Virus record (IMG/VR): IMGVR_UViG_3300010885_009894
Location: 1-26,786 of that record
Strand: one strand, 5' to 3'
Length of the DNA stretch: 26,786 nucleotides
Source: a virus
Part shown: in pieces, positions 4,961-20,000 of the stretch
Layout of the letters: each line of letters begins with the position of its first letter
Numbering within the stretch: position 1 is the first letter of the stretch
The notes under the pieces: generated by a model
What the model saw: the letters and a program-made list of their open reading frames with translations, nothing else
What the model was told of the DNA's origin: nothing
Databases searched by the model: none
Program-made: the position numbers and the translations under genes

Positions 4961-6940
4961 TTAAGCCTCGATTTTTAATATAGTCAATGTTACAACAATA
5001 GTAGTTGTGCTGCCACTTAGATTTGTAACTGCTAATTCGATATTTGTTGTTGGTGTGCTTTCGTTATTAAAACCAATAGTCCCGGGCCCAATTATAATTG
5101 TTTGAGCCCCTGAAGTTATAACCTCTGCTATAACACCAGATCCCGGAGTTGGATCAGAGGTTTGTAATCGACTAGAATCTAACGTCCTTGATGTTAGATC
5201 GGAATATATTCTTACCCAAGCGGCCGCCGAAGTTTGGATCTTGTACAATACATAACCCTTGAATCCAACAATGGTCAAGTTACCTGTAGCATTATTTGCC
5301 AAACTAGCTGTAGTCCCAGCAACAGTTCCACGTGATGCCAAGCCCGCGTTATTGACAGTAATGACACCCACCATGTTGCCATGTATTGAACAAATATATC
5401 GGTAAGCACCATTAACATCTGCTGGAATTTGCCAGTACAGCGTTCCTGTAACCTTACCTTGAGCATTTGTTCCTGTACTAACTGTCCCGTCAACTGCTAC
5501 ATGAATTAGACCAGTATCGTAATTTACGCCACCGCTGGTTTGTATCAAAAACGGATGACCGGTGACATTTAAATTAAATGCAATAGTAGTACCGCTAATG
5601 GTATATATAGTAGGATTGTTACCCGAGTACTGATTGTTGAACAAGTATGCCGCCGATGACGGAGCAGTAACATCCAGCCGTGTAATAGCAGGGTAGGTGG
5701 TGATGCTGGTAGCAGATGCACTAATAACGCCGCTGCCATTTATTGTAACTGTGGTGCCATCTATTTTGACGCCACCTAGTTGTGTAGTAGTGGCTGTGGC
5801 CAATGCGATAGAGCCCGATGTGTTGACAAGTCCACTAGTGGCAACTGCTGGCACGACAACTCCACCTAGTTGTGTAGTAGTGGCTGTGGCCAATGCGATA
5901 GAGCCCGATGTGTTGACAAGTCCACTAGTTGAAGCCGCTGGTATTATAACACCACCTAACACTGTGGTAGTGGCTGCGGGTAATGAATAGGTGCTGCCTG
6001 CTGAAACACCAGTTACTGTTCCAGTAAACACTGGATTATTAAACATTGTTGCTTTACTTTCATTTGTTACATTACCCAATCCGACCATTGCTGCGGTAAT
6101 GCCAGTTACTGTTCCTGTAAATATCGGGCTAGCTGTAGGGGCCTTGCCGGCAACGGTACTATTTAAAGTTGTTAGAAATAACGGATCGTTATTCAGTGCT
6201 GCTGCAATTTTGCCCAGCGTGTTTAACGCCAACGGTGCAGAATCAACAACGGTATTAATTGAAAGGTCCACGTATGCTTGACTAACTCCCGAGCCCCCAG
6301 ATACGCCCCCAGCCGATGCAGGTTGAACCCACTGATCGCTAGTGCCGTCTTTGTAATAGACAAACAACTCACCGGTATTTGAATTAAACCATAAACTACC
6401 AGTTTCAGTCACAGACGGTGCTGTATCACTTACTTGAACAGAAACGCCGCTGCCTGTAGTGCCGCCCCCGGGTAGAGGTGGGGGGGCCGTTCCCCCGCTG
6501 CCCCCGCCTCCCGGAGCAAACGATCCAACCACAGTGGGGCGTTTGAGTGGCAGCATAGTTTCTGAATATGTGGCAAACAGACTAATTCTAGAGCCTGCAT
6601 AAGCAGCATTTGCAGGGCTGGCTTTTAGGCTAAGCCAACTGTTAGTAACTTCAGCGGTTACTGTGATCAGTTGATCATCTACACTGGTACGACCATACAC
6701 TGTAAAACTTGCATGATCAGGGCGGGCAACTACCATGACCTGCAACGACTCTTTCTGATTTGAATCAAACTCTACAGTGATAAAGTAATTGGCGCTGGTA
6801 AATGCTCCAACAAACCAACGATCGATTTCAGTGTTGGTGTAGACTTGAAGGTGATCACCTTTGTAAGAGAAATTGGTGCCAGATTTTAGCGCAAGTGTGC
6901 CTTGTGGTCCTGGAATAAAGTACTGGGTTAAATTTAGCAT
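4961..6940 (-). CDS. Multidomain tail fibre with collar-type repeats and cupredoxin-like domain (659 aa)
   Basis: The N-terminal domain (about 1-140) is followed by a Gly/Pro linker (143-165) and the fibre module 'GSLWFNSNTGELFVYYKDG' (181-199). Residues 240-310 hold 'APTASPIFTGTVTGITAAM'-type shaft sequence. Residues 320-392 contain repeated 'ATTTQLGGV' units on a 30-residue period. Residues about 416-530 read as a cupredoxin-like beta-sandwich with potential type-1 copper ligands: His462 in 'VTGHPFLIQTSGG', then Cys517, His520 and Met523 in 'YRYICSIHGNMVGVITV'. The C-terminal 125 residues are beta-rich and not recognised. It is probably a trimeric fibre. SD TAGGA precedes the ATG, inside the loop of a short hairpin. 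It is first gene of the block that continues into the protease. Whether metal is bound cannot be told from sequence. Confidence 0.85.
   Translation of the reverse strand: MLNLTQYFIPGPQGTLALKSGTNFSYKGDHLQVYTNTEIDRWFVGAFTSANYFITVEFDSNQKESLQVMVVARPDHASFTVYGRTSVDDQLITVTAEVTNSWLSLKASPANAAYAGSRISLFATYSETMLPLKRPTVVGSFAPGGGGSGGTAPPPLPGGGTTGSGVSVQVSDTAPSVTETGSLWFNSNTGELFVYYKDGTSDQWVQPASAGGVSGGSGVSQAYVDLSINTVVDSAPLALNTLGKIAAALNNDPLFLTTLNSTVAGKAPTASPIFTGTVTGITAAMVGLGNVTNESKATMFNNPVFTGTVTGVSAGSTYSLPAATTTVLGGVIIPAASTSGLVNTSGSIALATATTTQLGGVVVPAVATSGLVNTSGSIALATATTTQLGGVKIDGTTVTINGSGVISASATSITTYPAITRLDVTAPSSAAYLFNNQYSGNNPTIYTISGTTIAFNLNVTGHPFLIQTSGGVNYDTGLIHVAVDGTVSTGTNAQGKVTGTLYWQIPADVNGAYRYICSIHGNMVGVITVNNAGLASRGTVAGTTASLANNATGNLTIVGFKGYVLYKIQTSAAAWVRIYSDLTSRTLDSSRLQTSDPTPGSGVIAEVITSGAQTIIIGPGTIGFNNESTPTTNIELAVTNLSGSTTTIVVTLTILKIEA
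5772..5929 (-). repeat. Two 68-bp exact tandem repeats on a 90-bp period in the fibre gene
   Basis: The segments 5772-5839 and 5862-5929 are identical by eye. They encode two copies of the unit ending in 'ATATTTQLGGV', with a more diverged third unit adjacent. Nucleotide identity, not just protein similarity, points to recent duplication or gene conversion in the fibre shaft. Confidence 0.85.
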
Positions 6941-7043: not shown

Positions 7044-7577
7044 ATGAATCGATTCAAATATCTTTTAGATAACATTCCAGCAAGATCCAGTAGCGGAGTA
7101 CTTGGAATTTTCCCTTGGGGATTAATTATTGATGATAAGGAAACTAGCATTAAAAATCAAAAATTAACCTTTATTGAAGAAGGTGTTGATTTCTTACAGT
7201 ATATTGCTAGTAAAAAAACGCCTATGGTATTGTTTCTCAATCAGTTTAAACCCCCTGTGCCTATGAACACTCTCAAAGAATTTGCAGAGGCAGTTGAAGA
7301 CTTTGTTAAAAAACAAGGTGTTGATCTAGTGGGAATGTATTGGTGTCCAGGAAGCGATAAAAAAGACCCGTTTGTGGTTCCAAACGCCGGCATGTTTCAT
7401 CGAGTGACTGAAAACACAGGAATAACCTGGGACGGAATGCCAGTTATTTCTAATAACGAACTAGATTTATCCGCAGCACTAAAAGTCAAGGCATTACCGA
7501 TTAAAATTGGTGGTAACAGTACCAAGTGGACAACATTTGCATCTCTACCAGACTGGCGTAATTCTCAATCTAACTAA
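7044..7577 (+). CDS. HAD-fold protein lacking catalytic residues (177 aa)
   Basis: The layout resembles the HisB-N/GmhB branch of HAD phosphatases: a first strand (20-31), 'FIEEGVDFLQYIASKK' (43-58), 'PMVLFLNQ' (60-67), 'GVDLVGMYWCPG' (92-103), 'VPNAGMFHRVTENTGI' (112-127) and 'VISNNELDLSAALKVKALPI' (134-153). However, the motif-I DxD is replaced by Phe23-Pro-Trp25 in 'GIFPWGLIIDD', the motif-III Lys is missing before 'PNAGM', and the motif-IV Gly-Asp is Ser-Asn. As read, it cannot be an active phosphotransferase of this family. It may be a binding or scaffold protein. It is the only gene on this strand and has a good SD (AGGG). Its stop overlaps the end of the convergent oxygenase gene by eight bases. 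The fold call is moderate; function is unknown. Confidence 0.65.
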   Translation: MNRFKYLLDNIPARSSSGVLGIFPWGLIIDDKETSIKNQKLTFIEEGVDFLQYIASKKTPMVLFLNQFKPPVPMNTLKEFAEAVEDFVKKQGVDLVGMYWCPGSDKKDPFVVPNAGMFHRVTENTGITWDGMPVISNNELDLSAALKVKALPIKIGGNSTKWTTFASLPDWRNSQSN

Positions 7578-8148
7578 CTTGACGTATAGTGGGTGTTGGA
7601 TCTGGTTGAAAACATAACCAACCGGTTATAATATATTTGACCTCAGTGGGTGCCACTACTCCCCGATGATGATGAGTCCATTGGGCAGGCCAGATCAATG
7701 TAAGACCGGCGTTGGCAGGTGTAACTATATTCTGATGTAAAAATTCTGTGCCACCGCCATCGACTATGTCATTTAGGTATGTCATATATGCAAAGTGTCT
7801 TTGCAGTGTACCTACCGTTCCGTCATTTTCGCAGTGAAGTGTATTGAAATATTGCCCCGGATTGTATCGTTGTATCCTAGGCGGAGTCCATCCCCAAGGA
7901 TGCAATTTTTCGTAACATAAAGGATATAATTCTTTATATTTTTCAATAGTGTCATGCAATGCCTTTTCGTATTGCTGGCATAATACATCATCAAAGTCTT
8001 TTAAATCATAATGCTGATACCATGGGGTCCATGCTATAAATTTATCAACATTACTTTCTCCTTTTTCCACTATGCTGTTACACAGTGTTGAATCAATATA
8101 CCAACCTGCAATGAACGTATTTGTACTGTTAATTGAATGTTCTTTCAT
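7570..8148 (-). CDS. Prolyl-4-hydroxylase-like 2OG-Fe(II) oxygenase (192 aa)
   Basis: The core reads as the double-stranded beta-helix of the P4H-like oxygenases found in many aquatic phages: 'IQRYNPGQYFNTLHCENDG' gives the HxE metal pair (His105, Glu107), 'HFAYMTYLNDIVDGGGTEF' the central strands, 'WPAQWTHHHRGVV' the distal His (159-161), and 'KYIITGWLCF' the 2OG-anchoring basic residue (Lys171). The family hydroxylates peptide or small-molecule carbons using 2-oxoglutarate and O2. Phage members have no settled substrate. Here it ends the six-gene enzyme operon, overlapping the preceding nitrilase gene by 20 bases. It stops with TAG, so amber is a normal stop in this genome. Hydroxylation of fibre residues before sugar addition is one idea, not shown. 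Confidence 0.85.
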   Translation of the reverse strand: MKEHSINSTNTFIAGWYIDSTLCNSIVEKGESNVDKFIAWTPWYQHYDLKDFDDVLCQQYEKALHDTIEKYKELYPLCYEKLHPWGWTPPRIQRYNPGQYFNTLHCENDGTVGTLQRHFAYMTYLNDIVDGGGTEFLHQNIVTPANAGLTLIWPAQWTHHHRGVVAPTEVKYIITGWLCFQPDPTPTIRQVS

Positions 8149-8902
8149 AGCATGTCAGTTTAAAATAATCAGTGCTGTGATCTCTCGCTGAGACTAATTC
8201 AGCCGAAGGCAGATATATGCCGCATTGTACTCCAGTTTGCCCTTCCCATATATCACCTTCCATCTTGTATGTATTTTCAGAAACTACTGTATACCATTTA
8301 CCAAGATTACTAAACATCTTTGCACATAGATTGTGCCATTCGCGGAACATGTGGCCTTGGGGACCTTTAGGAGTATTTGCACAGGCAAATAATATATTGC
8401 AGCCTTGTTCTTTTAAACTTCTCACTAGCTTACCCGATGCATCTGGATAGGACATCGGATCGGCCCATAGGTCGCTACATATTAATCCTGCAATTTTCAT
8501 TCCTCTATAATCGATTACCTGAACACCGTTGCCAGCAGTATAGTAGTGCTCAAATAGAATGTTTTTATAATGTACGTGTTCAATATTTCCATTAATAATA
8601 AATTGTAATGTATCACACCATTGATCATATTCATTAAACCATGCTGTACCCAGTACTAGATCTACGGCTTTTTCTTTAGAGTATGCAGTTATGTCTTTAA
8701 CTGCATCAGATAACTGTAAAATTTTAGTATCAGATGCGTTAACTGGGCTCCACATATATCCGCTTAATGCACATTCAGGAGTAGACATAATATCTACGCC
8801 GTTATTTGCTGCCCAATCTATTGCACGTTTAATTTCAGTTAGATTTTGTTGAATATTTGTTGTTACCGGAATTTGGCAACCTGCAATAACTAGCGGTTTC
8901 AT
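8129..8902 (-). CDS. Nitrilase-superfamily carbon-nitrogen hydrolase (257 aa)
   Basis: The Glu-Lys-Cys triad of the nitrilase fold is present in order: Glu43 in 'MSTPECALSGY', Lys113 in 'HYKNILFEHYYTAG' and Cys142 in 'IAGLICSDLWADP'. The N-terminal 'VIAGCQIPVTTNIQQNL' is also typical, and 257 residues is the usual single-domain length. These enzymes hydrolyse non-peptide C-N bonds in amides, N-carbamoyl compounds or nitriles, and some transfer acyl groups. The N-carbamoyl specificity of some members is notable next to a carbamoyltransferase, but the substrate cannot be read from the sequence. The gene starts two bases from the stop of the SGNH gene with a weak SD, so translation is probably coupled. 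Phage-encoded members of this family are unusual. Confidence 0.87.
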   Translation of the reverse strand: MKPLVIAGCQIPVTTNIQQNLTEIKRAIDWAANNGVDIMSTPECALSGYMWSPVNASDTKILQLSDAVKDITAYSKEKAVDLVLGTAWFNEYDQWCDTLQFIINGNIEHVHYKNILFEHYYTAGNGVQVIDYRGMKIAGLICSDLWADPMSYPDASGKLVRSLKEQGCNILFACANTPKGPQGHMFREWHNLCAKMFSNLGKWYTVVSENTYKMEGDIWEGQTGVQCGIYLPSAELVSARDHSTDYFKLTCYERTFN

Positions 8903-8903
8903 A

Positions 8904-9686
8904 TTAATTTAATTGATTTTCAATTGTGTAATTGTACAATTTGTTTGCCCAGTCAATATGATTTAATCTAGTAGGGTGTACAGGTAGAGATGCCCATCCC
9001 GACGATGGTGCTATTGGGCGGTATGTATTCCAGAAACTATACTCTCGAGTTGTCGGAGACATGTATTCTTTGCCTATCATGCTGACCATATGCGCTGCAT
9101 GAGGTTGCAATGCATCGGTAATTAACTGATCAATTCCGTTAAATTGTAAAATTGTTACCCCTAATCTATTTGCTAGACTAGTAAGAGATATACTATAGTT
9201 TAATAATAATTCTTGTTGATAAAAATCATAGGCCCAATAATTTGTAAAGTATTGGAACACTCCGGGTAATGTGTGAGATAACGAACCAGTTTGTCCGCAT
9301 ATTTCCTGAGGAGTTACACATAAAAACGACCCTTCGGTGCCCGGGTGAGTTACATTGGGTGCAGTTTTTTTAATTTCTGCAGGAACATCTATTTTAAAGG
9401 GATTAACAAGTTCCAATCGTGCAGGGCCAGTCCATTGGATAACTACCATCCCTGAAGTACCGTATTCTTGGTAGCATCGGACAATTTCTTCTTGAGCAAC
9501 TCTATAAATGCTACCGTTACTTCTTCCTGGCCATCCGCGGTTTACAACAGTATCTGCACGTAACAATGTACCAAGGTGTGCAGGCCATGCATTATCTTTG
9601 TCTTCGGGTAAAGATGACCCGACAACTGTAGTATCAGTTCCCCAGGTCAGACTACACCCTACTGCTAACAGCCAATCTTTTTTCAT
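8904..9686 (-). CDS. SGNH/GDSL-like hydrolase fold protein (260 aa)
   Basis: Block I is 'LLAVGCSLTWGTDT', placing the candidate nucleophile at Ser12. Block II is 'VVNRGWPGRSNGSIYRV' with the expected Gly and Asn. 'MVVIQWTGPARLEL' matches the block-III position but has Trp-Thr where esterases usually have GxND. Near the C-terminus 'VHPTRLNHIDWANKLY' occupies the site of the catalytic DxxH but lacks a clear Asp two residues before the His. This pattern recurs in a group of phage SGNH-like proteins. They may be esterases or acyltransferases on sugars, or catalytically altered. It lies third from the end of the enzyme operon, its ATG immediately after the upstream stop. The fold call is fairly confident; activity is uncertain. 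Confidence 0.7.
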   Translation of the reverse strand: MKKDWLLAVGCSLTWGTDTTVVGSSLPEDKDNAWPAHLGTLLRADTVVNRGWPGRSNGSIYRVAQEEIVRCYQEYGTSGMVVIQWTGPARLELVNPFKIDVPAEIKKTAPNVTHPGTEGSFLCVTPQEICGQTGSLSHTLPGVFQYFTNYWAYDFYQQELLLNYSISLTSLANRLGVTILQFNGIDQLITDALQPHAAHMVSMIGKEYMSPTTREYSFWNTYRPIAPSSGWASLPVHPTRLNHIDWANKLYNYTIENQLN

Positions 9687-9689
9687 TTA

Positions 9690-10439
9690 TTAACTTGTTA
9701 AACTGCGGTCTTTCAAATACATTTCAAATCCTTCCATTGTAGCAGGGTCGTCTAATAGCACATGAGGCCTAAACGGATTTGATAATTTATTTTTTTCAAT
9801 CGCCACATCAAACGCTAGACTAATACGTACATCGTCTCCCTCGTACACGTCACTACAATGAGGTACCCAACTAGGAAATAGTATCAATCTGCCTTCTTTG
9901 GTGGCAAAGCTGTTTGTTTGATCAGGACGAGAACAATTTATTAAATGCAACAGTGTTGGAGCAGTTGTTAGGTAGTATGTTGAGCTGAGATATGCAGTAG
10001 CATCGCTCATGTGAGCATGTTTAGAAATCCATTCACCTTTTCTCAGTACATTTGCCCACCCGTGTACATAGACTTTTACACGAGGATAGTTCAGCTCTTT
10101 TAAAAATAATAGGTAGTGTTTTCTAAAGATGTGAAATAGCTTTTCTAACTCTGGACTCATCTGAAATCGATCAAGTTGATCCCCGTCTTTGGCATTTTGG
10201 TCCCAAAATAAGTTATGCTGTTTCCAGTGCTGTGTGTGAGCATACGGATCGTCATGTTGTTTTGGAACTTCACTTACCAACGTTTCTCTTGCTATTTGTT
10301 TTTCAAATTCCAGTATTTGATTTCGTAATGCTGCTCGTAGAGAATCACTGCCGCCGTCCATTGTTTCATACAGAGGCATTTTTAAATTTGCAGCAAATTT
10401 AGTTTCTGGTATATCTGAATTAAACCAATGAACGGCCAT
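9690..10439 (-). CDS. 2OG-Fe(II) oxygenase-like protein (249 aa)
   Basis: The C-terminal half resembles the putative 2OG-Fe(II) oxygenases grouped as TIGR02466: 'WISKHAHMSDATAYLSSTYY' supplies a metal His (141 or 143), 'GRLILFPSWVPHCSDVYEG' the distal His194, and 'DVRISLAFDV' the 2OG-binding Arg205. The N-terminal 110 residues are helical and unassigned. I start it at the ATG at 10439 (MAVHWF), because AAGGA lies eight bases upstream; an in-frame ATG 24 bases earlier would overlap the carbamoyltransferase gene and lacks such a site. Only one base separates it from the upstream stop. The typical HxD Asp is not obvious, so activity is less certain than for the P4H-like protein. This makes two oxygenases of different subfamilies in one operon. 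Confidence 0.7.
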   Translation of the reverse strand: MAVHWFNSDIPETKFAANLKMPLYETMDGGSDSLRAALRNQILEFEKQIARETLVSEVPKQHDDPYAHTQHWKQHNLFWDQNAKDGDQLDRFQMSPELEKLFHIFRKHYLLFLKELNYPRVKVYVHGWANVLRKGEWISKHAHMSDATAYLSSTYYLTTAPTLLHLINCSRPDQTNSFATKEGRLILFPSWVPHCSDVYEGDDVRISLAFDVAIEKNKLSNPFRPHVLLDDPATMEGFEMYLKDRSLTS

Positions 10440-10440
10440 A

Positions 10441-12210
10441 TTACATTCCTTGTTGTTCTGCAAAATTATGAGGTACTGTAATCAGTTTACCAACTTCCGG
10501 TAAAAACAAGTACTTCAGCTCACTGCTACGTAGGGTGTACAATGCGTCTTCAATCGTTTCAACTAGCGGATCTCCACCAAGATTAAAGCTAGTATTAAAC
10601 AAGATTGGTACTCCGGTGAGGCGTTTAAATTCTGCAATCAAATCATAATAGTGTTTGTTCTCATCAACGGTAACTGTTTGAATACGGCAAGTTCCATCTA
10701 CGTGAATAATACTAGGAACTTTTTCAGCAACACCCGGTTGGCAGTTTACTGCATACATCATGAATGGAGTTGAATCCATTCCTCTTAAGTCAAACCACTC
10801 ATGTACATCTTCTTGTAAAATTGTGCCAGCAAACGGACGGAACCATTCACGATGTTTAACTTCGTTGACGATATCTTTACCATCTTTAACACGGGGATCG
10901 AACAATATAGATCTATTACCCAGCGCACGTGGGCCTGCTTCGCTGCGACCTTGGAACATACACACAATTGTTTCTTCACTGATTAATTTTGCAATTGACT
11001 CAACGGTTGCATCTTCAATTGTTTCACCATCCATTAATCTTGCATCGTACTTTCCATCTTTTTCAAAATAGTTAGGACCGTAATAAATGGTCTTATGCGG
11101 ACGACGAGTAACATCTTCATTTATTTCATGATGTACTAGTTTTGCAGCGCCAATGCATGTGCCGCCGTCGTGGGCAATTGGTTCTATAAAGAGATTAATG
11201 CCTTCTGGTAGATGTTTTAAGTATTCGTAATTGCCAACACAGTTTAAACCAAAGCCACCGGCAATTACGATATTCTTTTCGCCGGTTCGTTTTACAGCAT
11301 CAAGAATTAATCTAACTATCTGTTCTTCACAGGCATGCTGTACTGCATATGCTAGATCCATTTTACTTTCTAACGAATCGTTATTTAATGCAGGGTATAA
11401 CACCCTGTCAATATATGCACCATTTGGATAGTTAGGGGTGAATAAATTACGATTACTTATATGACGAGCATCCGCTCCAAGAAAGATCGGCGGAATGTCT
11501 GGATTAGCTTTACCGTAAGGAGCAAGACCCATTGCTTTTCCAGCTTCAATGAAGCTAAATCCACAGTATTCTGTCATGGCCTCATAACACTTTGTAATTC
11601 CACAATGGTCTGTAAACATAACATCGTGGATGTCTTCCGGTTTGCCGCGATTCGCGTGAGGAACTTGTAATTTTTCAAGAGCAACTCGTGGACCGCGGAC
11701 TCCGATATGCTTAAATCTGGTTGCAAAATTTGCAGGATATGATGCGGCAAAAATTGTTTCTAATTCAAATCCAGTCTCGCCACTATCGCCTAATGGGATA
11801 AACGTTCCTGCTCCGTCGACAATCAAACAGGCCGCTGTTTCGAATCCGCTATTGTAGAATGCACAAGCAGCATGTAGCTCATGGTGTAGGTGCGCTAGAT
11901 CAATAACTTGCGGATGTTTCGGTTCATCTAAATTGCGAATTAATCCTAATTTTCTTGCCCAGCCAGTATACATGTCGTCGCCGGTAAAATCAATTTTTCC
12001 AGCAGTGGCCAGCGGCTGTGTATGTGCAACTACTAGATAGTCAAGACTATCTGTATACTCTTTAATTTTTAACATACCAGCTAATGGGCCACCGTCGTAT
12101 TTTTTTCGGCTTAGGCGTTCTTCCTCGATGTAAAATACAACTTCGCCATCTTTTAGCAAACAAGTTGCGCCGTTGTGTCCTCTGGTAATGCCTGCAATCC
12201 ATTGTGTCAT
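10441..12210 (-). CDS. O-carbamoyltransferase, NodU/CmcH/TobZ family (589 aa)
   Basis: Both domains of the family are present at full length. The N-terminal kinase-like domain has 'IAGITRGHNGATCLLKDG' with His12, 'FYIEEERLSRKKYDGG', the metal/nucleotide motif 'LAHLHHELHAACAFYNSGF' (His109, 110, 113) and 'ACLIVDGAG' (Asp132). 'IVIAGGFGLNCVGNYEYL' and 'EPIAHDGGTCIGAAK' follow. The C-terminal YrdC-like domain has 'GRSEAGPRALGNRSILFDP', 'VKHREWFRPFAGTILQED' and 'GVPILFNTSFNLGGDPLV'. The enzymes make carbamoyl-adenylate from carbamoyl phosphate and ATP and move the carbamoyl group to a hydroxyl, usually on a sugar. It has a good SD (AAGGA) and sits second in the operon, after a glycosyltransferase, so a sugar acceptor is likely. 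Some phage relatives have been linked to DNA-base modification; that alternative stays open. Confidence 0.95.
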   Translation of the reverse strand: MTQWIAGITRGHNGATCLLKDGEVVFYIEEERLSRKKYDGGPLAGMLKIKEYTDSLDYLVVAHTQPLATAGKIDFTGDDMYTGWARKLGLIRNLDEPKHPQVIDLAHLHHELHAACAFYNSGFETAACLIVDGAGTFIPLGDSGETGFELETIFAASYPANFATRFKHIGVRGPRVALEKLQVPHANRGKPEDIHDVMFTDHCGITKCYEAMTEYCGFSFIEAGKAMGLAPYGKANPDIPPIFLGADARHISNRNLFTPNYPNGAYIDRVLYPALNNDSLESKMDLAYAVQHACEEQIVRLILDAVKRTGEKNIVIAGGFGLNCVGNYEYLKHLPEGINLFIEPIAHDGGTCIGAAKLVHHEINEDVTRRPHKTIYYGPNYFEKDGKYDARLMDGETIEDATVESIAKLISEETIVCMFQGRSEAGPRALGNRSILFDPRVKDGKDIVNEVKHREWFRPFAGTILQEDVHEWFDLRGMDSTPFMMYAVNCQPGVAEKVPSIIHVDGTCRIQTVTVDENKHYYDLIAEFKRLTGVPILFNTSFNLGGDPLVETIEDALYTLRSSELKYLFLPEVGKLITVPHNFAEQQGM

Positions 12211-12222
12211 ATTACAAATTCC

Positions 12223-13149
12223 TTATTTTACAGTTTGTTTAATGTGTGTTTCTATACTTGTGTATAGATTTTCAAATTCTTCAGACGATAAGCTCAATGC
12301 TTGATCGTTAATTCTATCAGCTAAATGACTGTTGAAGTCACTAATTCTAATAGGTGCATATTCTTTTGTAAACCCCGGTTTTTCCCAAATATTAAAGTGT
12401 TGAGGGTGTGACACATTTATTGCAAAAGTGCTGCCGAGTATTACCGTTCCTGGCACATTAAATGCATAGGCAAAGTGTTGTCCTACACTGTCACACCCAA
12501 TAAAATAGTCAGCAAGTTCGATTACCGCTGCCCACTTGCGCAGATCAAAATTCTTTGGCTGAATAGTAAATGTATCGTTTTTAGTTGGGAATTCACTCAT
12601 GGAAATCACATTGTATGTTTTGCGCAGGCGTTCTACAATTTTTAAATAGTCAGCTTGCTCGATACTACGAGTACCCATATCGGCAACGATTCCAAGATCG
12701 TCGTTGGGCTGAGACCCTCGACCGTATGGTTGTATTACAATTGTTTTGTCTTTGCCGTGTTCTTTTCTTGCAATATTTAATGCAGCAAGTGCATGTAGCT
12801 CTTCGTCTTTGTTTAGGTAAAGAGCAGGGCGAGTCTGTGTGCGTAATTCTGTGTGTCCATTTATTTGTTTATCAAATGCCTGTGCTATACTGCATCGTTG
12901 ATTGTAGTAATCGTTATCCCTATAAGGCTCAGTTGTGACAAGCTCACCATGTTTAATAATATCTTTAAATAGATTTTTATGATTTACGTCAAATACTTTA
13001 TCCTGTAGTAATGGATTACCCCAAAACATATCTAATCCGGATTCACATACAATGTAAAATTCATCGTGTGTTTTAGCATATTCTTCTAGAGCGGGTAATG
13101 CACTAACCACTCTGCCTGAACCGCCGTTTATAAAGAAGACTTTATACAT
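12223..13149 (-). CDS. Glycosyltransferase, GT9/heptosyltransferase-like (308 aa)
   Basis: It looks like a GT-B enzyme of the ADP-heptosyltransferase type: an N-terminal Rossmann start 'VFFINGGSGRVVSALPALEE', a mid-protein 'KTIVIQPYGRGSQP', and the C-terminal donor-site signature 'DYFIGCDSVGQHFAYAFNVP' followed by 'GTVILGSTF'. Family members transfer a sugar from a nucleotide donor onto a surface glycan. Length fits the family. It is the first gene of the six-enzyme operon. The ATG follows directly after a T-tract; the only SD candidate is AGGGG, 11 bases upstream, which lies in the 3' arm of a long hairpin. Translation could therefore depend on which promoter made the transcript. The family is moderately certain; the substrate is unknown. 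Confidence 0.7.
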   Translation of the reverse strand: MYKVFFINGGSGRVVSALPALEEYAKTHDEFYIVCESGLDMFWGNPLLQDKVFDVNHKNLFKDIIKHGELVTTEPYRDNDYYNQRCSIAQAFDKQINGHTELRTQTRPALYLNKDEELHALAALNIARKEHGKDKTIVIQPYGRGSQPNDDLGIVADMGTRSIEQADYLKIVERLRKTYNVISMSEFPTKNDTFTIQPKNFDLRKWAAVIELADYFIGCDSVGQHFAYAFNVPGTVILGSTFAINVSHPQHFNIWEKPGFTKEYAPIRISDFNSHLADRINDQALSLSSEEFENLYTSIETHIKQTVK

Positions 13150-13233: not shown

Positions 13234-13509
13234 TTATCTGTTAGATAATATCAATTCCTGATCCATGTTTGGCATTTGAGGCCAAACAATTTTGCTGAGA
13301 TCGTCAAGATCAGCATACGTGATCGGTATGTCTCGAAGAACTTGTTTATACTCTCTCCACATGGATTGGATAGATTCTGGAGAATCAAAATTATAACGAG
13401 ACTCTGCCAGTAACAGCATTTGGTCTCGACGCATTCTAACAATTTCCCATGTAACAGGGGGGGTGTCTTGCGTTGGTTCTGTTTCGATAATAATTGGATC
13501 TTGTATCAT
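13234..13509 (-). CDS. Tail-fibre assembly chaperone-like protein (91 aa)
   Basis: Residues about 19-82 carry the pattern of small phage tail-assembly chaperones of the PF16778 type: 'WEIVRMRRDQMLLLAESRY' near the N-terminus, then 'SMWREYKQVLRDIP', then 'IVWPQMP'. Such proteins are usually encoded next to the fibre they help fold. This one directly follows the 429-aa Gly/Cys-rich adhesin: its ATG begins one base after the upstream stop, and the SD is weak (AAGGG, 12 bases away), so coupled translation is likely. A hairpin terminator follows. The same motif occurs in the 194-aa protein at 14803-15387. The family match is by eye. Confidence 0.7.
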   Translation of the reverse strand: MIQDPIIIETEPTQDTPPVTWEIVRMRRDQMLLLAESRYNFDSPESIQSMWREYKQVLRDIPITYADLDDLSKIVWPQMPNMDQELILSNR

Positions 13510-13510
13510 A

Positions 13511-14800
13511 TTAGTAATATACCCTTACGTAACCAGCTGCGCCAATACCGCCAGTTGTGCTCTTGTAATAACACTGCGACATGCTTGATGATGATCCGCC
13601 GCCGCCGGGAAAGTTGCCCGGTTTAGTGTTGTTATGTCGATCACACTGTGAATAACTAGTAGTACCGCATGTATATTGTGCAGTACCCGGAGTATTGTAT
13701 GCGGATACTGTTTCATTTCTAGAATACATTGACATGGATCCAGTTGCTGTACTTAATGTTATTGCACTACCAGCTCGGGTGAGACTCACAGTAAATGTAC
13801 TGCTAGTAGGAACAGATACTACATAATATGCAGTGCTTGCTTCAATGCCGCCAAAGACTGCGCCTAAAAAATACACCTGTGTCCCAACTGGAATTTTTGC
13901 AGTGTCAGTTGTGCTTATAGTTAATACGTTAGTGCTAACTGTAGTATTTGTCACTGTTAAAATTAACTGGCCTGGATTATCACCGCCGATGCCTGCAACA
14001 GAGTTAGTATTTGTACAGGAGGTATTGAATCTATAATAACTCCAGCAGTTACACGAATACCCGTGCCATGTACCGTCACCGCCCCATGGTGCGCTACCTC
14101 CAAGACTATGTTGATTGCTACAATATCCGCCACACCCCGGAGATGTTGCGCCGGTTGCTGATGCACTAACGTGGTATGTGGTTGGAAAGTTTGAAGCTGC
14201 ACGATATCCAGTGCATCCGTAATTGCAGCCGCAATCGCCTGTTGGGTCTTCCGATCCAAATGGTGAACCACAAGCCCTGGCGGTGCAACCGCAGTACCAG
14301 TAGCACTGAGCAGTTCCTGTGCGGCCACCATGGGAATCTGCACAGATTGTTCCGTTTCTTAATACTAATGAGCACTGGCCTCGGCCTCCTGCACAACACC
14401 AATTTGAACCAGCATTATAGCCACCACCTTGGCATCCGCCTGCACCTGCACATATATCTAATACATCGCCGGGTACAACAGGAAACGTTTGGCGTACCCA
14501 TGTGGCTCCGCCGCCGCCCGGGTTTGATCCGCAACAATCTCCGTTTATTACAGACGGGCCACCGCCCCCACCGCCCCATAGCTCAACTGTAACTGATGTA
14601 ACTCCAGCCGGAACAGTCCAAGAACACAGGCATCCAAGCGGTGTTGTAGTACCTTGGCAGCAACATCCTTTTTCCCCGGCCGTTAGATCCGGTGAACAGC
14701 CGTATACTTCTAAAGATCGTATACAGAACGGTGCGCTAGGTACAGTGACTGGTTGTGCGCAGCACGGTGAACCTTTATTAACACAAACGACATATGCCAT
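13511..14800 (-). CDS. Glycine- and cysteine-rich tail adhesin with inserted beta module (429 aa)
   Basis: After a Cys-rich N-terminus (1-58) comes 'CSWTVPAGVTSVTVELWGGG', the entry to a glycine-rich adhesin domain, then Gly-rich sequence full of cysteines. I count 33 Cys in 429 residues, including CC and CCC clusters. It ends in 'GGIGAAGYVRVYY', matching the ends of the two upstream paralogues. Residues about 279-358 are different: a Cys-free Thr/Val/Ser-rich block ('YYVVSVPTSSTFTVSL') of the same type as the repeats in the 1277-aa fibre. A strong SD (AGGAG) precedes the ATG. The likely role is a receptor-binding tip. Many Cys could allow disulfide or metal cross-linking, which would be unusual for a protein assembled in the cytoplasm. 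Confidence 0.82.
   Translation of the reverse strand: MAYVVCVNKGSPCCAQPVTVPSAPFCIRSLEVYGCSPDLTAGEKGCCCQGTTTPLGCLCSWTVPAGVTSVTVELWGGGGGGPSVINGDCCGSNPGGGGATWVRQTFPVVPGDVLDICAGAGGCQGGGYNAGSNWCCAGGRGQCSLVLRNGTICADSHGGRTGTAQCYWYCGCTARACGSPFGSEDPTGDCGCNYGCTGYRAASNFPTTYHVSASATGATSPGCGGYCSNQHSLGGSAPWGGDGTWHGYSCNCWSYYRFNTSCTNTNSVAGIGGDNPGQLILTVTNTTVSTNVLTISTTDTAKIPVGTQVYFLGAVFGGIEASTAYYVVSVPTSSTFTVSLTRAGSAITLSTATGSMSMYSRNETVSAYNTPGTAQYTCGTTSYSQCDRHNNTKPGNFPGGGGSSSSMSQCYYKSTTGGIGAAGYVRVYY
13727..13966 (-). other. Inserted ~80-residue 'YYV' beta module inside the adhesin gene
   Basis: The encoded block has 'VGTQVYFLGAVFGGI', then 'STAYYVVSVPTSSTFTVSL', then 'TLSTATGSM', the same order as each half-unit of the array at 18142-20629. 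It contains no Cys, while the sequence on both sides is Cys-rich, so it looks like a module inserted in a surface loop. Confidence 0.75.
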
Positions 14801-14802
14801 TA

Positions 14803-15387
14803 TTATTCTCCTGTTGGTGCAGGCGGTGAGCTGTATTTGCCTTCAACGTACCATACACACCGCGGTTTAATATCATCAGGAACGCCATTACGAGCAGATG
14901 CTGGATAAGGAGGCACGTAATCGTGCCAAAATACAGTTGCAGGTGTTCTACCTGCTGTCTGTTCACGGTCTACAATGTTACGCAACAGTGCTCGATATTC
15001 AATCCAATCTGATTTAAGAGGGTCAGGCGTATCTATGTTGAACATGTTGTCGCTTGAAGCTAACATTATATTGCGGGCTGCTCTAACATCGTCCCAATTT
15101 GGTGCTGGTCTGTAGACTAAATTCAAATCATTAGTGTCCCAATTCCATGTACATTCGCCGACTAGTACATCAAACAACGGATCACCTTGTCTTAGATTGC
15201 CAGCATTAATAAACAGTTGTTCTGTTGTGGACCCAGGGAGTATTTCCACATAGTCTCTAAATGGTCCCAATACTTCGTCTCTATTGTGATCCGGTAATTC
15301 ACTTTCTTTAAATCGAAAATTTTCGATATGCCCGGGTTGAGAGCTATCAGCTTTCCATACCATTAAATATTGTTTTTCTGTTGTCAT
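14803..15387 (-). CDS. Protein with C-terminal tail-assembly chaperone-like motif (194 aa)
   Basis: I start it at the ATG at 15387 (MTTEKQ), because AAGGAT lies eight bases upstream; an earlier in-frame ATG at 15411 overlaps the preceding gene. Residues 1-95 hold an unrecognised globular domain ('YLMVWKADSSQPGHIENF'). From about residue 98 the pattern 'WDDVRAARNIMLASSDNMF' followed by 'DWIEYRALLRNI' matches the 91-aa chaperone-like protein at 13234-13509, position for position in its W, VR, R, L, D-P and W-EY-LR residues. It lies between two Gly/Cys-rich adhesin genes, two bases from the downstream one, consistent with a dedicated folding or attachment factor. The role is inferred from context. 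Confidence 0.65.
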   Translation of the reverse strand: MTTEKQYLMVWKADSSQPGHIENFRFKESELPDHNRDEVLGPFRDYVEILPGSTTEQLFINAGNLRQGDPLFDVLVGECTWNWDTNDLNLVYRPAPNWDDVRAARNIMLASSDNMFNIDTPDPLKSDWIEYRALLRNIVDREQTAGRTPATVFWHDYVPPYPASARNGVPDDIKPRCVWYVEGKYSSPPAPTGE

Positions 15388-15401
15388 GTCATTTATCCTT
15401 A

Positions 15402-16241
15402 TTACATCCAAATTCTTACAAGGCCGGCCGCGCCATTACCGCCACAGAAGCAATAGCCACACCCGGTCATAAAGGCCCCACCTGTGCCGCCACCACCTGG
15501 AAAATTACCAGTTAGGCCACATCCGCTACCGTGTTTTCCGTTGCCACAAATATTGCCCTGTGTATCACACTGTCCGGCCATATACATGTTACGTCCACCA
15601 AATGGGGAGCCACCGCCGTATGTCCAACCTGCATCCCAACAATTCATTTCTTGTGTATGTACTCCACCGTCATATCCTCGAACATTTAAATCGCCACCTG
15701 TTCCTGGAAATCCGCCGTTTGCTCCAGCCGGTGAGACCCAATGGTAGCATCTAGATTCTCCGCCGTAACCACCATCTGAACAAAAATTAGTCAGTCCTGA
15801 GCCAGTTACAAAGGTAGTTGAACCTTTTTTGCCACAGCAACACCCGTTGGCGCTCATTCCGCTTTCAATGCCGCCACCGTACCCGCCGGCGCCGGCGCAT
15901 ACTGTATAGATAGTGCCAGCAGATAGACCTGTTAATGTTTTTCTAGAATAAGCTCCGCCGCCGCCGCCTGAGCCGTGATAACAGCAGAAGCAAACACCAG
16001 GGGTGCCGCCCCCACCACCGCCACCTCCCCATAATTCGATGATTACAGATGTAACGCCGGCTGGCACAACCCATGCACAGCAGTTCCCAGAACCCATGTT
16101 GCCGGTTTGGCATGTACCACCGGCGCCGCCGGTCATTTGAAACAAACATGCGCCTTGCCCGGGGCTAAATGACCTAGTGCAATTCCATGCGCCTTTTGTT
16201 GTGTTGTCACAAACTATAATATCTGTTCTATATCGTCCCAT
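15402..16241 (-). CDS. Glycine- and cysteine-rich tail adhesin (279 aa)
   Basis: A paralogue of the proteins on both sides: a Cys-containing N-terminus, then 'CCAWVVPAGVTSVIIELWGG', then long Gly-rich sequence with conserved 'TIYTVCAGAGGYGGG' and 'GNFPGGGGTGGAF', ending 'GGNGAAGLVRIWM'. I count 22 Cys in 279 residues, with CC and CCC clusters. The Gly-rich segments alternate with Cys, Asn, Tyr and Trp-rich stretches that could be exposed loops. The likely role is a fibre-tip receptor binder. SD AAGGA lies eight bases before the ATG. The spacing to the 272-aa paralogue is nine bases, suggesting tandem duplication and divergence. Confidence 0.83.
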   Translation of the reverse strand: MGRYRTDIIVCDNTTKGAWNCTRSFSPGQGACLFQMTGGAGGTCQTGNMGSGNCCAWVVPAGVTSVIIELWGGGGGGGGTPGVCFCCYHGSGGGGGAYSRKTLTGLSAGTIYTVCAGAGGYGGGIESGMSANGCCCGKKGSTTFVTGSGLTNFCSDGGYGGESRCYHWVSPAGANGGFPGTGGDLNVRGYDGGVHTQEMNCWDAGWTYGGGSPFGGRNMYMAGQCDTQGNICGNGKHGSGCGLTGNFPGGGGTGGAFMTGCGYCFCGGNGAAGLVRIWM

Positions 16242-16250
16242 TATTATTCC

Positions 16251-17069
16251 TTAGTACCAAATTCTTACAAGGCCGGCAGCACCACAGCCGCCACACATGC
16301 AAGGGCCGCAACAACAGTTCATGTGTGCGCCCATACCACCGCCACCTGGGAATTGACCGCCGCCTGCGGTATACGGATTATACGGGCAGCAATGATTATA
16401 TGTTGTCCATGAGCCGGCTCCCCCGCCCATTGGAGCTGATCCACTTATAGCGTTAGCTCGGCATCCTTCTGATCGACCAAATCTGTGGCCACCTTCGCCG
16501 CAGGCATATACTACATTGCCAACTGTAGTGGATGAACCAATTAGTCCGCATGATGACGGATTACATCCATTCCATGCATAACATGATACCGTCTCGTTAC
16601 AGTTATTACAGTTACCCTGGCCGCCACCAGCACAAAACCCACTTAGACTTCCGCCAGTTACATATGAGGGGTTACCTGTGCCAGCGCCAGTGGAGCCGCC
16701 ACAACCCATGTTACCACCTGTTCCTGAACAAATTGAATAAACTTGACCGGCGGTGACCGGAATAGTTGCAGAAATATAGCCGCCACCGCCACCACCAAGA
16801 CCATTTGAGCAGCAGCAGCAGTTGCCATTGCCAGCCCCACCACCGCCCGAACCCCACATTTCAATTACAACTGTAGTGACTCCCGAAGGAACAGTCCAGT
16901 TGCAGCTGGTGCCGCCCATAACGTCTAATCGATTTTTACTACTACTAGTAGAAATACTGCACTGAAAAATCAGTGCATTACTTTGGCACAAGGTAAGGTC
17001 GGGTACTACTGCGCAAGCGCAGACTGCATTGCTACCTTCTTTGCTGGGTAAATCTTGATATCTTGCCAT
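16251..17069 (-). CDS. Glycine- and cysteine-rich tail adhesin (272 aa)
   Basis: The first of three paralogous adhesins in transcription order. After a 58-residue N-terminus it has 'CNWTVPSGVTTVVIEMWGSG', then Gly-rich sequence with 'NGNCCCCSNGLGGGGG', 'QVYSICSGTGGNMGCGG' and 'GQFPGGGGMGAHMNCCCG', ending 'GCGAAGLVRIWY'. I count 27 Cys in 272 residues, about one in ten and the highest of the three. The stop of the 1277-aa gene overlaps its start (TAATG), with SD AGGAAAG upstream, so it is translationally linked to that fibre. A receptor-binding tip is the best guess. The Cys density has no explanation from the known S16 gp38-type adhesins, which I recall as Gly-rich but not Cys-rich. Confidence 0.83.
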   Translation of the reverse strand: MARYQDLPSKEGSNAVCACAVVPDLTLCQSNALIFQCSISTSSSKNRLDVMGGTSCNWTVPSGVTTVVIEMWGSGGGGAGNGNCCCCSNGLGGGGGGYISATIPVTAGQVYSICSGTGGNMGCGGSTGAGTGNPSYVTGGSLSGFCAGGGQGNCNNCNETVSCYAWNGCNPSSCGLIGSSTTVGNVVYACGEGGHRFGRSEGCRANAISGSAPMGGGAGSWTTYNHCCPYNPYTAGGGQFPGGGGMGAHMNCCCGPCMCGGCGAAGLVRIWY

Positions 17070-20000
17070 TATACGCTTTCCTGTATTCCAATTGCCAGTG
17101 CGTTAACACCGGTGGTGTTGCTGGATGCGTATAGATACGAATTTGGAGGAACAATTACCCCAGTTCTTTCTAATACGCCACCACCCGCAATAATTGATTC
17201 AAATTCTAAAAAGTCACCATTCATTGGCTGTCCTTGTAGGGTCATTGATCCGCTGCCTGTAGTTAATACCTGCACAGGGCCATCTGGCGTTGCTGATAAG
17301 AGCACATGTGTTGAGCTCGGAATCGCCTTGACATAGTATGACGGGATCATAAAATATGATTGACTACTGTTATCAGTTTGTGTAACTGCTGCGCCACCGA
17401 TAGTAGCACTGATTGTGAATGTAGTTCCACTTACGGCTGGATTTAAAATATAATAGCGTTGGAATGGTACAATTCTACCGGCATATGTTCCCGTGAACAC
17501 TACAGGTTGACCTGCTACTAAGTTGGCAGTACTTGCTATAGTAATAGTGTTACCTGATGAAGCAGTTGCGGTAACAACATACGGCAATCCCAAGTTAGAA
17601 CTTAGAGGAATAACGCTACCAAATTGTGTGCCAATAAATTGCACTGGTTGATTTAATGTCAAATTAGCAGTATCACCTGCAGAGATAGTAATCAAGTTAC
17701 TGGTCATAAATGTTACACCAATAGTTGAAACTAGTGTAGTAGCTGCGCCGCCTAGACTAGATGCAAGTGTAGTCACTGTTCCATACAATGATGCAGGCGC
17801 ACTACGAACATAATATGATCTGTAAGGCTCAAATGTTAATCCCTGTGCTGTCTGTAGATACATAATGTTTGACATAGTATTGAATGTTAACAATGTACCA
17901 CCTGCCGATGCACTGAGTGTAAAGGTAGATGTTGATGGAATTGACTGTATGTAATAAACTGTTCCAGCTGATACACCGCCATATGTTTGGCCCAGGAATT
18001 TTACTGGTTGATTGAGTTCTAAAGCCTGTGTTCCGCCATTTACTGTGAATACACCACCACTAACACCGATAATAGTTAATGTTGCCCCAGTGAATACAAT
18101 TGGTTGATTTGCGGTAAGTGCAGAATTTGCAGCGTTAACTGACATTCCGCCGTATTGGGTTGACAATGCAAATACTGTGCCCGCAACGCCGCTGCTCACT
18201 GATGCTGATACTGTAAATGTTGTTGCACTATCAATAGTTTTAACATAGTAGACTGTTCCTGCAACAATGTTACCAAATGTAGCACTGCTGAATACCACTG
18301 GTTGATTCAATGTTAAATTAGTAGTAGTTTGTTGTAGGTTAACACTTGATGATGTAGCAGTAGTTAACGCTACCTGTGCACCACCCCATGAGGCCGACAC
18401 AGTAAATTGTGTACTATTAGGAATAGTTAAAATATAGTAAGTAGTAGTTGCTGCTAGGCCGCCCAATGAGCTTGAAAATTGCACAGGCATACCTATTGTA
18501 AAAGAACTAGTGCTTTCGCAGGTAATAAGATTAGTAGTTACCGTTGTTGCGGTTACTGCAAACGTCTGGGTTGTAATTAAGTTGGATGATGTGGTTGTAG
18601 TACCGATTGTGATAGACTGCGCAGTAGTTGCACTCGTCACTGTAACTGGTAGACCCATTTGTGTACATCCCATTACTAGCCCGCTGCCACCACCCGTGGC
18701 CAGTACAAATACTGCTCCGCCGGGAGTAGATGACACAGTGAATGTATTTAAACTATCTATCGTTTTAATATAGTACACTGTTCCTGCAACAATATTACCA
18801 AACACCGAACCCAAAAATGCTGGTCCACCAAAGGTAATTGGTTGATTTAACACCATGTTGCTAGTGGCCTGGAACATAGTTACACCGGGTGATGCAGTTG
18901 CTAGTACAAATGTTGGGCCACCAAAATATCTTGAAACAGTAATTGTTGTTGGGCTTTCAATTGTTTTAACATAATAAATTTGGTTAGCAACTAAGTTTCC
19001 ACCGGCACCGTTAAAATATATTGGCATGCCAACATCAAGGAAGAAAGTTGTTGTTACAGTAATTAAGTTAGTGGTAGCTGTGGTTGTAGGAGCAGAAATA
19101 CCCTGGGTTGTTAGTAAGTTACTGGTCACAGTAGTTGTGCTGATAAACACATCATGCACAGGGCCAGTATAGCAAGTCATTGTTCCTGAACTTGTTGACT
19201 GTGAAAATGCTGCGCCGCCCGAAGTTGCAGACACTGTGAATGTTGTGCTAGACACTGCACTTAGTACAAAATATGTTGTACCGGGTGATATATTACCAAT
19301 GGCAGTTCCCCAGAATACTACTGGTTGATTAACTATTAAGTTTGCTGTAGAATGCTGTACGTTTAATGAACCCGTTGCGCTTGACAATGCAACTGCTGAG
19401 CCGCCTTGTGCTAGAGAAACAGTAAACTGAGTTGCACTGTTGATAGTCAATACATAATAAGTAGTACCTGCGGTAATACCGCCAAGCGCACCGCTGAATA
19501 CAATGGGTTGATCAACTATCAGTGTACTGGTACTTGAACAGGTAATTAAGTTAGTGGTTGTGGTAGTTGCTGTCACTGCAATACTTGCTGTGGTAATCAC
19601 ATTGGTACTGGTTGTAGTGTTAGAAATTACTATCGGTATTGGTCGAATACGGCCGCCTGTCATAGATCCGCTTGCAGTTGCCAGTGCAAACACCGGGCCG
19701 CCCATAGTAGCCGAAATGGTGAATGTAGTGTTGCTATCTAAAGTTCTTACATAGTAGACAGTGTTTGCAACAATATTACCAAATGTAGTTCCAGTGAACA
19801 CTATTGCTTGACCTAGTGCAAAGTTTGATGTTGATTGTTGTACCGTTATTGAGCCAGTAGCAGTTGTCAATGTTACTGGTGCGCCATCTCTAATAGCCGA
19901 CACTGAAAATTGTGTTGAACTGTTAATAGTGGTAACAAAATATATTGTACCAGCAACTAGGCCGCCAAGTGCTCCGGAAAATACTACTGCATGCCCTATA

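Follow-up and report, generated by a model that had tools for sequence, protein, structure and literature searches.

A glycosyltransferase–carbamoyltransferase gene pair beside cysteine-rich tail fibres: a probable locus for fibre decoration in phages

The window analysed here is one complete record of a virus collection (IMG/VR record IMGVR_UViG_3300010885_009894; 26,786 bases). Our subject is an island of six enzyme genes among its tail-fibre genes, which includes a glycosyltransferase (GT) and a NodU/CmcH/TobZ-type O-carbamoyltransferase (hereafter Nol), and which probably serves to decorate the fibres of the phage itself. All six open reading frames (ORFs) lie on the minus strand, from the GT (12223–13149) through to a P4H-type 2-oxoglutarate (2OG)–Fe(II) oxygenase (7570–8148). 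An initial annotation had named the families and described a tight operon embedded between adhesin genes. Checks with Pfam, PHROGs and NCBIfam bear this out, with one start corrected and the SGNH assignment weak. From the P4H gene to the GT gene the corrected spacings are a 20-base overlap, then 1, 3, 1 and 12 bases, and the description as a tight operon is therefore valid. Adhesin or tail genes flank the island on both sides, with the phrog_677 match at 4961–6940 and the Gly_rich_2 match at 13511–14800, and tail-fibre-assembly chaperones lie in between. Overlooked at that stage were a plus-strand HAD gene (7044–7577), which is part of the locus, and the richness of the adhesins in cysteine. 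The features are as follows.

20933–25471, minus strand: tail fibre protein, 1512 aa (phrog_9851, E 2e-236)
17069–20902, minus strand: large fibre protein of 1277 aa, Cys content ordinary (groups with the fibres of relatives)
16251–17069, minus strand: Cys/Gly-rich fibre protein, proposed acceptor, 27 Cys in 272 aa (phrog_4205, E 3e-20)
15402–16241, minus strand: Cys/Gly-rich fibre protein, proposed acceptor, 22 Cys in 279 aa (phrog_4205, E 2e-28)
14803–15411, minus strand: second tail-fibre assembly protein (phrog_4912)
13511–14800, minus strand: Cys/Gly-rich adhesin, proposed acceptor, 33 Cys in 429 aa (Gly_rich_2, E 3e-7; Cys count)
13234–13509, minus strand: tail-fibre assembly chaperone, Phage_tail_APC (PF16778, E 2e-9)
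12223–13149, minus strand: core gene 1, glycosyltransferase of predicted GT9 fold, 308 aa (phrog_8954, E 1e-96; orthologue of the cyanophage 'hypothetical' T4-GC302)
10441–12210, minus strand: core gene 2, Nol (PF16861, E 1e-58; PF02543, E 1e-22; phrog_1601, 7e-169)
9690–10439, minus strand: 2OG-Fe(II) oxygenase of the 2OG-FeII_Oxy_5 type, OXY5 (PF13759, E 4e-12; TIGR02466, E 1e-11)
8904–9686, minus strand: accessory SGNH-like (GDSL/DUF6071-like) protein (weak matches: Lipase_GDSL_2, E 0.02; DUF6071, E 0.008)
8129–8902, minus strand: accessory nitrilase-superfamily (CN_hydrolase) protein (PF00795, E 7e-14)
7570–8148, minus strand: accessory P4H-type 2OG-Fe(II) oxygenase (PF13640, E 8e-8; phrog_61, E 2e-29)
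7044–7577, plus strand: GmhB-like HAD protein (NF006506, E 3e-7), with an 8-base tail-to-tail overlap with the P4H gene
4961–6940, minus strand: tail-fibre connector or fibre gene on the opposite flank (phrog_677, baseplate wedge/tail-fibre connector, E 1e-19; other fibre families)

A carbamoyltransferase search (38 loci) and a search with an alignment of 27 GT sequences (the best 80 of at least 555 related loci in the virus collection) gave, together with the reference phages and the window, 118 distinct loci. Used singly, the window GT sequence drew no close relative. Each search yields no more than its best 80 loci; most records are fragments and ORFs were mechanically called. The GT and Nol occur together in 113 of the 118 loci, on the same strand in all 113 and as direct neighbours in 102, and two of the five loci without a carbamoyltransferase are cut by contig ends. 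A fibre or fibre chaperone lies within 8 kb of the pair in 93 of the 113, as judged with cluster hidden Markov models built from the loci under study. The partners are variable. Any 2OG-type oxygenase (DUF6445 included) accompanies the pair in 75 of the 113 loci, an SGNH protein in 21, a flavin halogenase in 18 and a nitrilase in five; among heptose-related genes, a GmhB-like HAD and HldE/HldD are each found in 43. The pair changes slowly (pN about 0.12 to 0.19, pN/pS 0.16–0.25) and the accessory genes fast (pN 0.25–0.37, pN/pS 0.32–0.51); this constraint and the close linkage of the two genes go beyond what chance would give. The conserved core is the GT–Nol pair, and the accessory enzymes are swappable. 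Treatment of the six genes as one conserved unit is rejected: SGNH is sporadic, and the full theme of 2OG oxygenase, SGNH, nitrilase and pair is shared by the window only with its closest relative, locus L006. In L087 and L113 the order is reversed, with Nol before the GT, and the strand is opposite to that of the flanking fibre genes. A psbA search to sort hosts was positive in one of 50 records, these being mostly fragments.

Upstream of the GT lie three small adhesins with 33, 22 and 27 Cys (7.7, 7.9 and 9.9%); in all other ORFs of the window the Cys content is 3.5% or less. The adhesins had been described as Gly-rich tips; they are Gly-rich, but better described as Cys-rich and Gly-rich. 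A 298-residue tail protein at 1223–2119, with 35% glycine and zero cysteine, is of the opposite kind. A locus counted as Cys-rich if some 150-residue stretch of an ORF reached 8% Cys, and GT loci were included if they had 3 kb or more of upstream sequence. Such an ORF is present in 91 of 97 GT loci, with a median for the best ORF of 13.3%. Among 80 control loci, gathered with a P-RSM4-type fibre as query, not one was Cys-rich (median 3.3%) or had a GT, and five had Nol. A further set of 80 was collected with the nitrilase, a query chosen regardless of GT or Cys: 16 loci had both the GT and a Cys-rich ORF, one had the GT only, none had a Cys-rich ORF only and 63 had neither. The Fisher value of 6e-16 for this set is descriptive only, as the loci share ancestry and the window-type loci in it belong to the same family. 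Nine contigs from metagenome-assembled genomes (MAGs) that carry the GT are all Cys-rich and all have Nol (9/9 each). These GT relatives, L314–L322, lie beside Nol and Cys-rich fibres in contigs labelled Euryarchaeota, Gammaproteobacteria, Flavobacteriales and others, and are probably phage contigs binned into MAGs.

The Cys-rich fibres are of several unlike types, with up to 148 Cys in 1397 residues. Contents of 8–15% over long stretches near the GT were seen in the window fibres and in L067–L074, L061, L082 and L123–L125, and cysteine is the most conserved residue (0.76) in the phrog_4205-like fibres. Of the six apparent exceptions, L052 proves to have two fibres with 45–46 Cys further upstream and L050 resembles it in type; contig ends truncate L022, L092 and L025, and L053 is borderline. 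In the open literature searched, outside which most subscription papers lie, we found no earlier description of phage fibres that are both Cys-rich and linked to a GT.

The association extends to phages in which a GT relative occurs and no Nol was found beside it, namely the Vibrio schitovirus SBP1, Vibrio phages D505 and K479 and Aeromonas phage HJ05. The protein directly beside the GT in these has 41, 41, 39 and 23 Cys, respectively, and is annotated as a tail protein in the Vibrio phages and unannotated in HJ05. The C-terminal fibre domain of SBP1 recurs in Vibrio phages D63 and 1.004.O (31–34% identity), whose proteins have four Cys each in 1155 and 1176 residues; the stretch of fibre region covered contains no GT. 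Of the ten SBP1 cysteines that align to D63, nine are opposite N, V, R, T or S. Since these Vibrio and Aeromonas phages have the GT without Nol, and P-RSM4 has Nol, no GT match and low-Cys fibres, Cys-richness follows the GT and not Nol.

The GT contains three Cys in total and starts directly with a Rossmann lobe. In a Foldseek search its predicted structure (AlphaFold2; pLDDT 90.9) matched the GT9 structure 3tov (1.7e-9), TibC (4rap, 4e-9), WaaF (1psw, 1.5e-8) and WaaC (2gt1, 1.5e-7). TibC, WaaF and WaaC are ADP-heptose users and TibC is a protein heptosyltransferase. On the predicted structure, the GT belongs to the GT9/ADP-heptose transferase fold class (GT-B), an assignment that rests on fold because the sequence match is too weak for family membership. 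Alignment to WaaC/WaaF with hhalign had a low probability; in it the C-lobe CDS-GQH pairs with the DTG-SH nucleotide-sugar motif of WaaC. With the BAHT enzymes TibC/AAH (PMC4358343) the GT shares the GT-B heptosyltransferase fold, a gene beside its own adhesin and putative adhesin decoration; it differs in that the BAHT hallmarks, a four-Cys iron finger and an N-terminal beta-barrel, were sought in it and neither is present, and in that the phage acceptor and donor are putative.

Nol carries Carbam_trans_N and Carbam_trans_C domains above cut-off, and its matches in the PDB include a carbamoyltransferase (7xb6, 2e-58) and TobZ (7e-50). H109-x3-H113 and D348 are invariant in 20 sequences; this HxxxH and later Asp we take to be Kae1-like site residues. 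Second, split or partial cyanophage carbamoyltransferase genes occur in L002 (9937–11046), L003 (7056–8213) and L128 (6178–9772), some of them beside thymidylate synthase and not fibres.

The locus is also present in isolated cyanophages. In P-SSM2, S-SSM7, S-CAM1 and Sf-FS3 the order is tail fibre, small fibres, T4-GC302 (the GT), T4-GC303 (Nol) and sugar genes; one or two genes on the opposite strand come next, followed by a further tail-fibre gene, the neck genes gp13/gp14, or both. T4-GC302, annotated as 'hypothetical' in these isolates, matches the window GT at 227–267 bits. Sullivan et al. (2010; PMC3037559) regarded these clusters as lipopolysaccharide (LPS) genes whose use was unknown. 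GC302 was left unassigned, and the Cys-rich fibres seem to have gone without comment in the literature searched. The Kyanoviridae T4-GC302–308 locus (P-SSM2, S-SSM7, S-CAM1) resembles the window in gene order, in its orthologous GT and Nol and in its Cys-rich small fibres, and the window fibre at 20933–25471 resembles the fibre that opens the cyanophage locus. In place of the HldE, HldD and cupin genes of that locus, the window carries OXY5, SGNH, nitrilase and P4H. The window itself carries no capsid gene; the gp23 capsid protein of L006 is nearest to the jumbo T4-like phages Phosso, Vibrio 2.275.O and GAP32 (66–72% identity) and not to Kyanoviridae, so the GT–Nol module spans quite distant T4-like groups. 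A PHROG search with the window fibre at 17069–20902 gave no match, and relatives of the terminal protein of the window, sought among isolates, were not found.

Sister loci encode HldE (E 4e-94), HldD (5e-64) and GmhB (4e-37). Because cyanobacterial LPS, marine Synechococcus strains included, is generally without heptose (PMC4515613), heptose made by a cyanophage needs another destination. A precedent for carbamoyl-heptose is provided by WapO and the 7-O-carbamoyl heptose of the Pseudomonas LPS core (PMC8005017). The WaaC/WaaF and WapO system shares with the phage pair a heptosyltransferase fold and a carbamoyltransferase; the phage GT differs in the apparent lack, by motif, of Asp13, the phage genes differ in their fibre-locus setting, and no LPS assembly genes were found in the phages.

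The accessory enzymes are less uniform. Both window 2OG oxygenases score above the Pfam cut-off. For OXY5 the likeliest start codon is the ATG at 10439, not the TTG at 10463, as judged from the aligned N-termini of relatives: MAVHWF lines up with their MSVIWF/MGVFWL. Its H141-x-H143, H194 and R205, the Fe and 2OG ligands, are invariant in 13 sequences, and a gene of this type adjoins the pair in about 20 loci. The translation of the P4H-type enzyme shows HxE...H...K. The SGNH-like protein retains a conserved GCSLT and H237-P238, so that the Ser block and His are present, with Leu where the Asp of DxxH is expected, three residues before the His, and a weak profile score; its structure model (pLDDT 35) was discarded. 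PDB sequence searches with the SGNH-like and P4H proteins returned nothing useful. In the nitrilase triad E43-K113-C142, E43 and C142 are invariant in the alignment and K113 is assigned by motif, and the distant PDB matches are the amidase domain of NAD synthetase and Nit2. We rejected the nitrilase as a dedicated fibre enzyme, as it is also found near DNA-replication-type genes in other phages; 63 of the 80 nitrilase loci are in phages without the GT or Nol. Separate from the fibre loci, phage nitrilase relatives adjoin 2OG oxygenases near clamp-loader/PhoH-like genes (L146–L151, L160, L165–L167, L220), some nitrilases being in tandem triplicate.

The plus-strand HAD protein has IFPWGLIIDD where intact relatives have LDRDGT/V, so that the DxDxT motif is lost (alignment with 46 relatives), and it is under some constraint (pN/pS 0.14–0.56). 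It is a candidate pseudo-phosphatase with another role. Its relatives include those in L050, L067 and L109; the gene keeps its place, but the catalytic Asp motif is lost in many phages and intact in L061, L082, L109 and L112. A cyanophage 'phosphoheptose isomerase' of about 110 residues (L003–L005) looks like a small HAD capsule-type phosphatase. Tryptophan-halogenase-like flavoenzymes occur in the same type of fibre locus (L002, 7902–9389; L025, 13516–15006; L050, 1260–2855; L090), and since flavin halogenases recur in 18 of the 113 loci halogenation may belong to the tailoring set.

We consider it probable that the locus serves tail-fibre self-decoration, in which the GT glycosylates the Cys-rich fibres, Nol carbamoylates the sugar and the variable enzymes tailor the product. 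During late expression, the GT would transfer a sugar to the Cys-rich fibres encoded just upstream; this would most likely be heptose, with an ADP-heptose-type compound as donor. Nol would carbamoylate the sugar, in the way proposed for WapO and the heptose of Pseudomonas LPS, and the 2OG oxygenases, SGNH protein and nitrilase would form a fast-changing set that further tailors sugar or protein. Phages of hosts that lack heptose, the cyanobacteria, would bring their own HldE/HldD, and the window phage, with only a dead GmhB-like remnant, would use host ADP-heptose. Decoration of the phage's own tips with a carbamoylated sugar had been one suggestion of the initial annotation, and it gains support from the GT–Nol pair in fibre loci, the heptosyltransferase fold, the sister HldE/HldD genes and the link between GT and Cys-rich fibres, which includes unrelated phages. 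The link of GT to fibre is well supported; from the computed families, fold and linkages we infer the donor, the acceptor residue (Ser/Thr or Cys), the order and timing of the steps and all accessory-enzyme functions. Glycosylated virion proteins of mycobacteriophages offer a parallel, in that a phage GT is suggested to act on its own structural protein; there the protein is capsid, not tail fibre, and no carbamoyltransferase or heptose genes are described (PMC11256854).

A more specific proposal, which we put forward tentatively, is that the GT9-fold enzyme S-glycosylates (heptosylates) fibre cysteines in diverse unrelated phages, the sugar in T4-like phages then being carbamoylated and variably oxidised or acylated. 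The gain of Cys where GT-less homologues have other residues, and the recurrence of the pairing on unlike fibres, would favour cysteine as acceptor; the conservation of Cys in phrog_4205-like fibres would also be expected of structural cysteines. It is speculation that the apparent absence of the catalytic Asp from the GT would fit a thiol nucleophile. SunS-type glycocin S-glycosyltransferases belong to a different family and have short bacteriocin peptides as acceptors; the phage GT would share their chemistry if cysteine were the acceptor, the S-linkage here being hypothetical. To our knowledge an S-linked (thio) virion glycoprotein would, if true, be the first.

Several points weigh against fibre self-decoration. 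All of its support is comparative and computational, and the locus counts overstate independence because the loci share ancestry; independent events number perhaps three to four. The GT matches no Pfam GT family, its TIGR02201 match (E 2.5e-4) is under the curated cut-off, and its sequence has no significant match among the solved structures of the PDB. The position of the catalytic Asp13 of WaaC appears, by motif and not superposition, to be an invariant Arg13 in 27 GT sequences. Given this apparent Arg13 and the weak sequence match, the donor and chemistry of the GT may differ. No Hld genes are present in the window. As P-RSM4-type phages have Nol but not the GT, Nol must serve other purposes too. 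In L053, a borderline case, the GT is present and Nol is not, and the best protein is no more than moderately Cys-rich (6.7%).

The alternative that survives best is that the GT and Nol modify host LPS or another surface glycan during infection, so as to exclude superinfecting phages or mask the receptor; their place near the fibres would then reflect co-evolution of receptor and fibre. Both enzyme families do make carbamoyl-heptose on Pseudomonas LPS (PMC8005017), and the cyanophage clusters have been called LPS genes (PMC3037559). Such remodelling was also raised by the initial annotation, and we now think it rather unlikely: no Wzy_C/WaaL or Wzx family is present in 22 records, two of them of more than 270 kb, the hosts of heptose-making cyanophages are without LPS heptose (PMC4515613), Vibrio phages carry a lone GT flanked by tail genes, and a link between GT and Cys-rich fibres is not expected.

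Cassettes are exchanged especially often at fibre loci. The Cys-rich fibres could be acceptors in a different modification, or their tips could be disulphide-bonded or metal-bound, with the GT and its partners merely co-travelling in a host-range cassette. The high conservation of cysteine in the phrog_4205-like fibres fits this account. We regard it as unlikely, however, since the pairing recurs on unlike fibres (Gly-rich, SBP1-type and the 1390-residue type), for which a common structural need is improbable.

That the enzymes make a carbamoylated metabolite, or that the cyanophage carbamoyltransferase supports pyrimidine synthesis, is very improbable. The description of phage S-SZBM1 does place the carbamoyltransferase in pyrimidine synthesis (PMC9146016). 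We see here an annotation problem: Nol is of the O-carbamoyltransferase family (TobZ, 7xb6) and not an aspartate carbamoyltransferase, and on this ground we reject the pyrimidine role; it also lies beside the GT in a tail operon. DNA-base modification by the oxygenases and GT, a further early suggestion, is scarcely credible: 2OG oxygenases and GTs modify bases in some phages, and PHROG names such as 'DNA endonuclease' attach to the window oxygenases, but the heptosyltransferase fold, the carbamoyltransferase partner, the tail location and the GT-only loci between tail genes all speak against it, and no DNA-modification gene lies beside the pair in the loci examined.

Known in sequence from P-SSM2 onwards, the locus has so far been put down as 'LPS genes of unknown use' or as hypothetical proteins. 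The link between the GT and Cys-rich fibres supplies a concrete candidate acceptor. If the fibres carry carbamoyl-heptose or a similar sugar, many marine and freshwater phages would bind their hosts through chemically modified fibres, which sequence-based prediction of host range would have overlooked. Variation in the enzyme set might parallel, at the chemical level, the variation in fibre sequence, and S-glycosylation, if true, would add a new layer of receptor-binding diversity.

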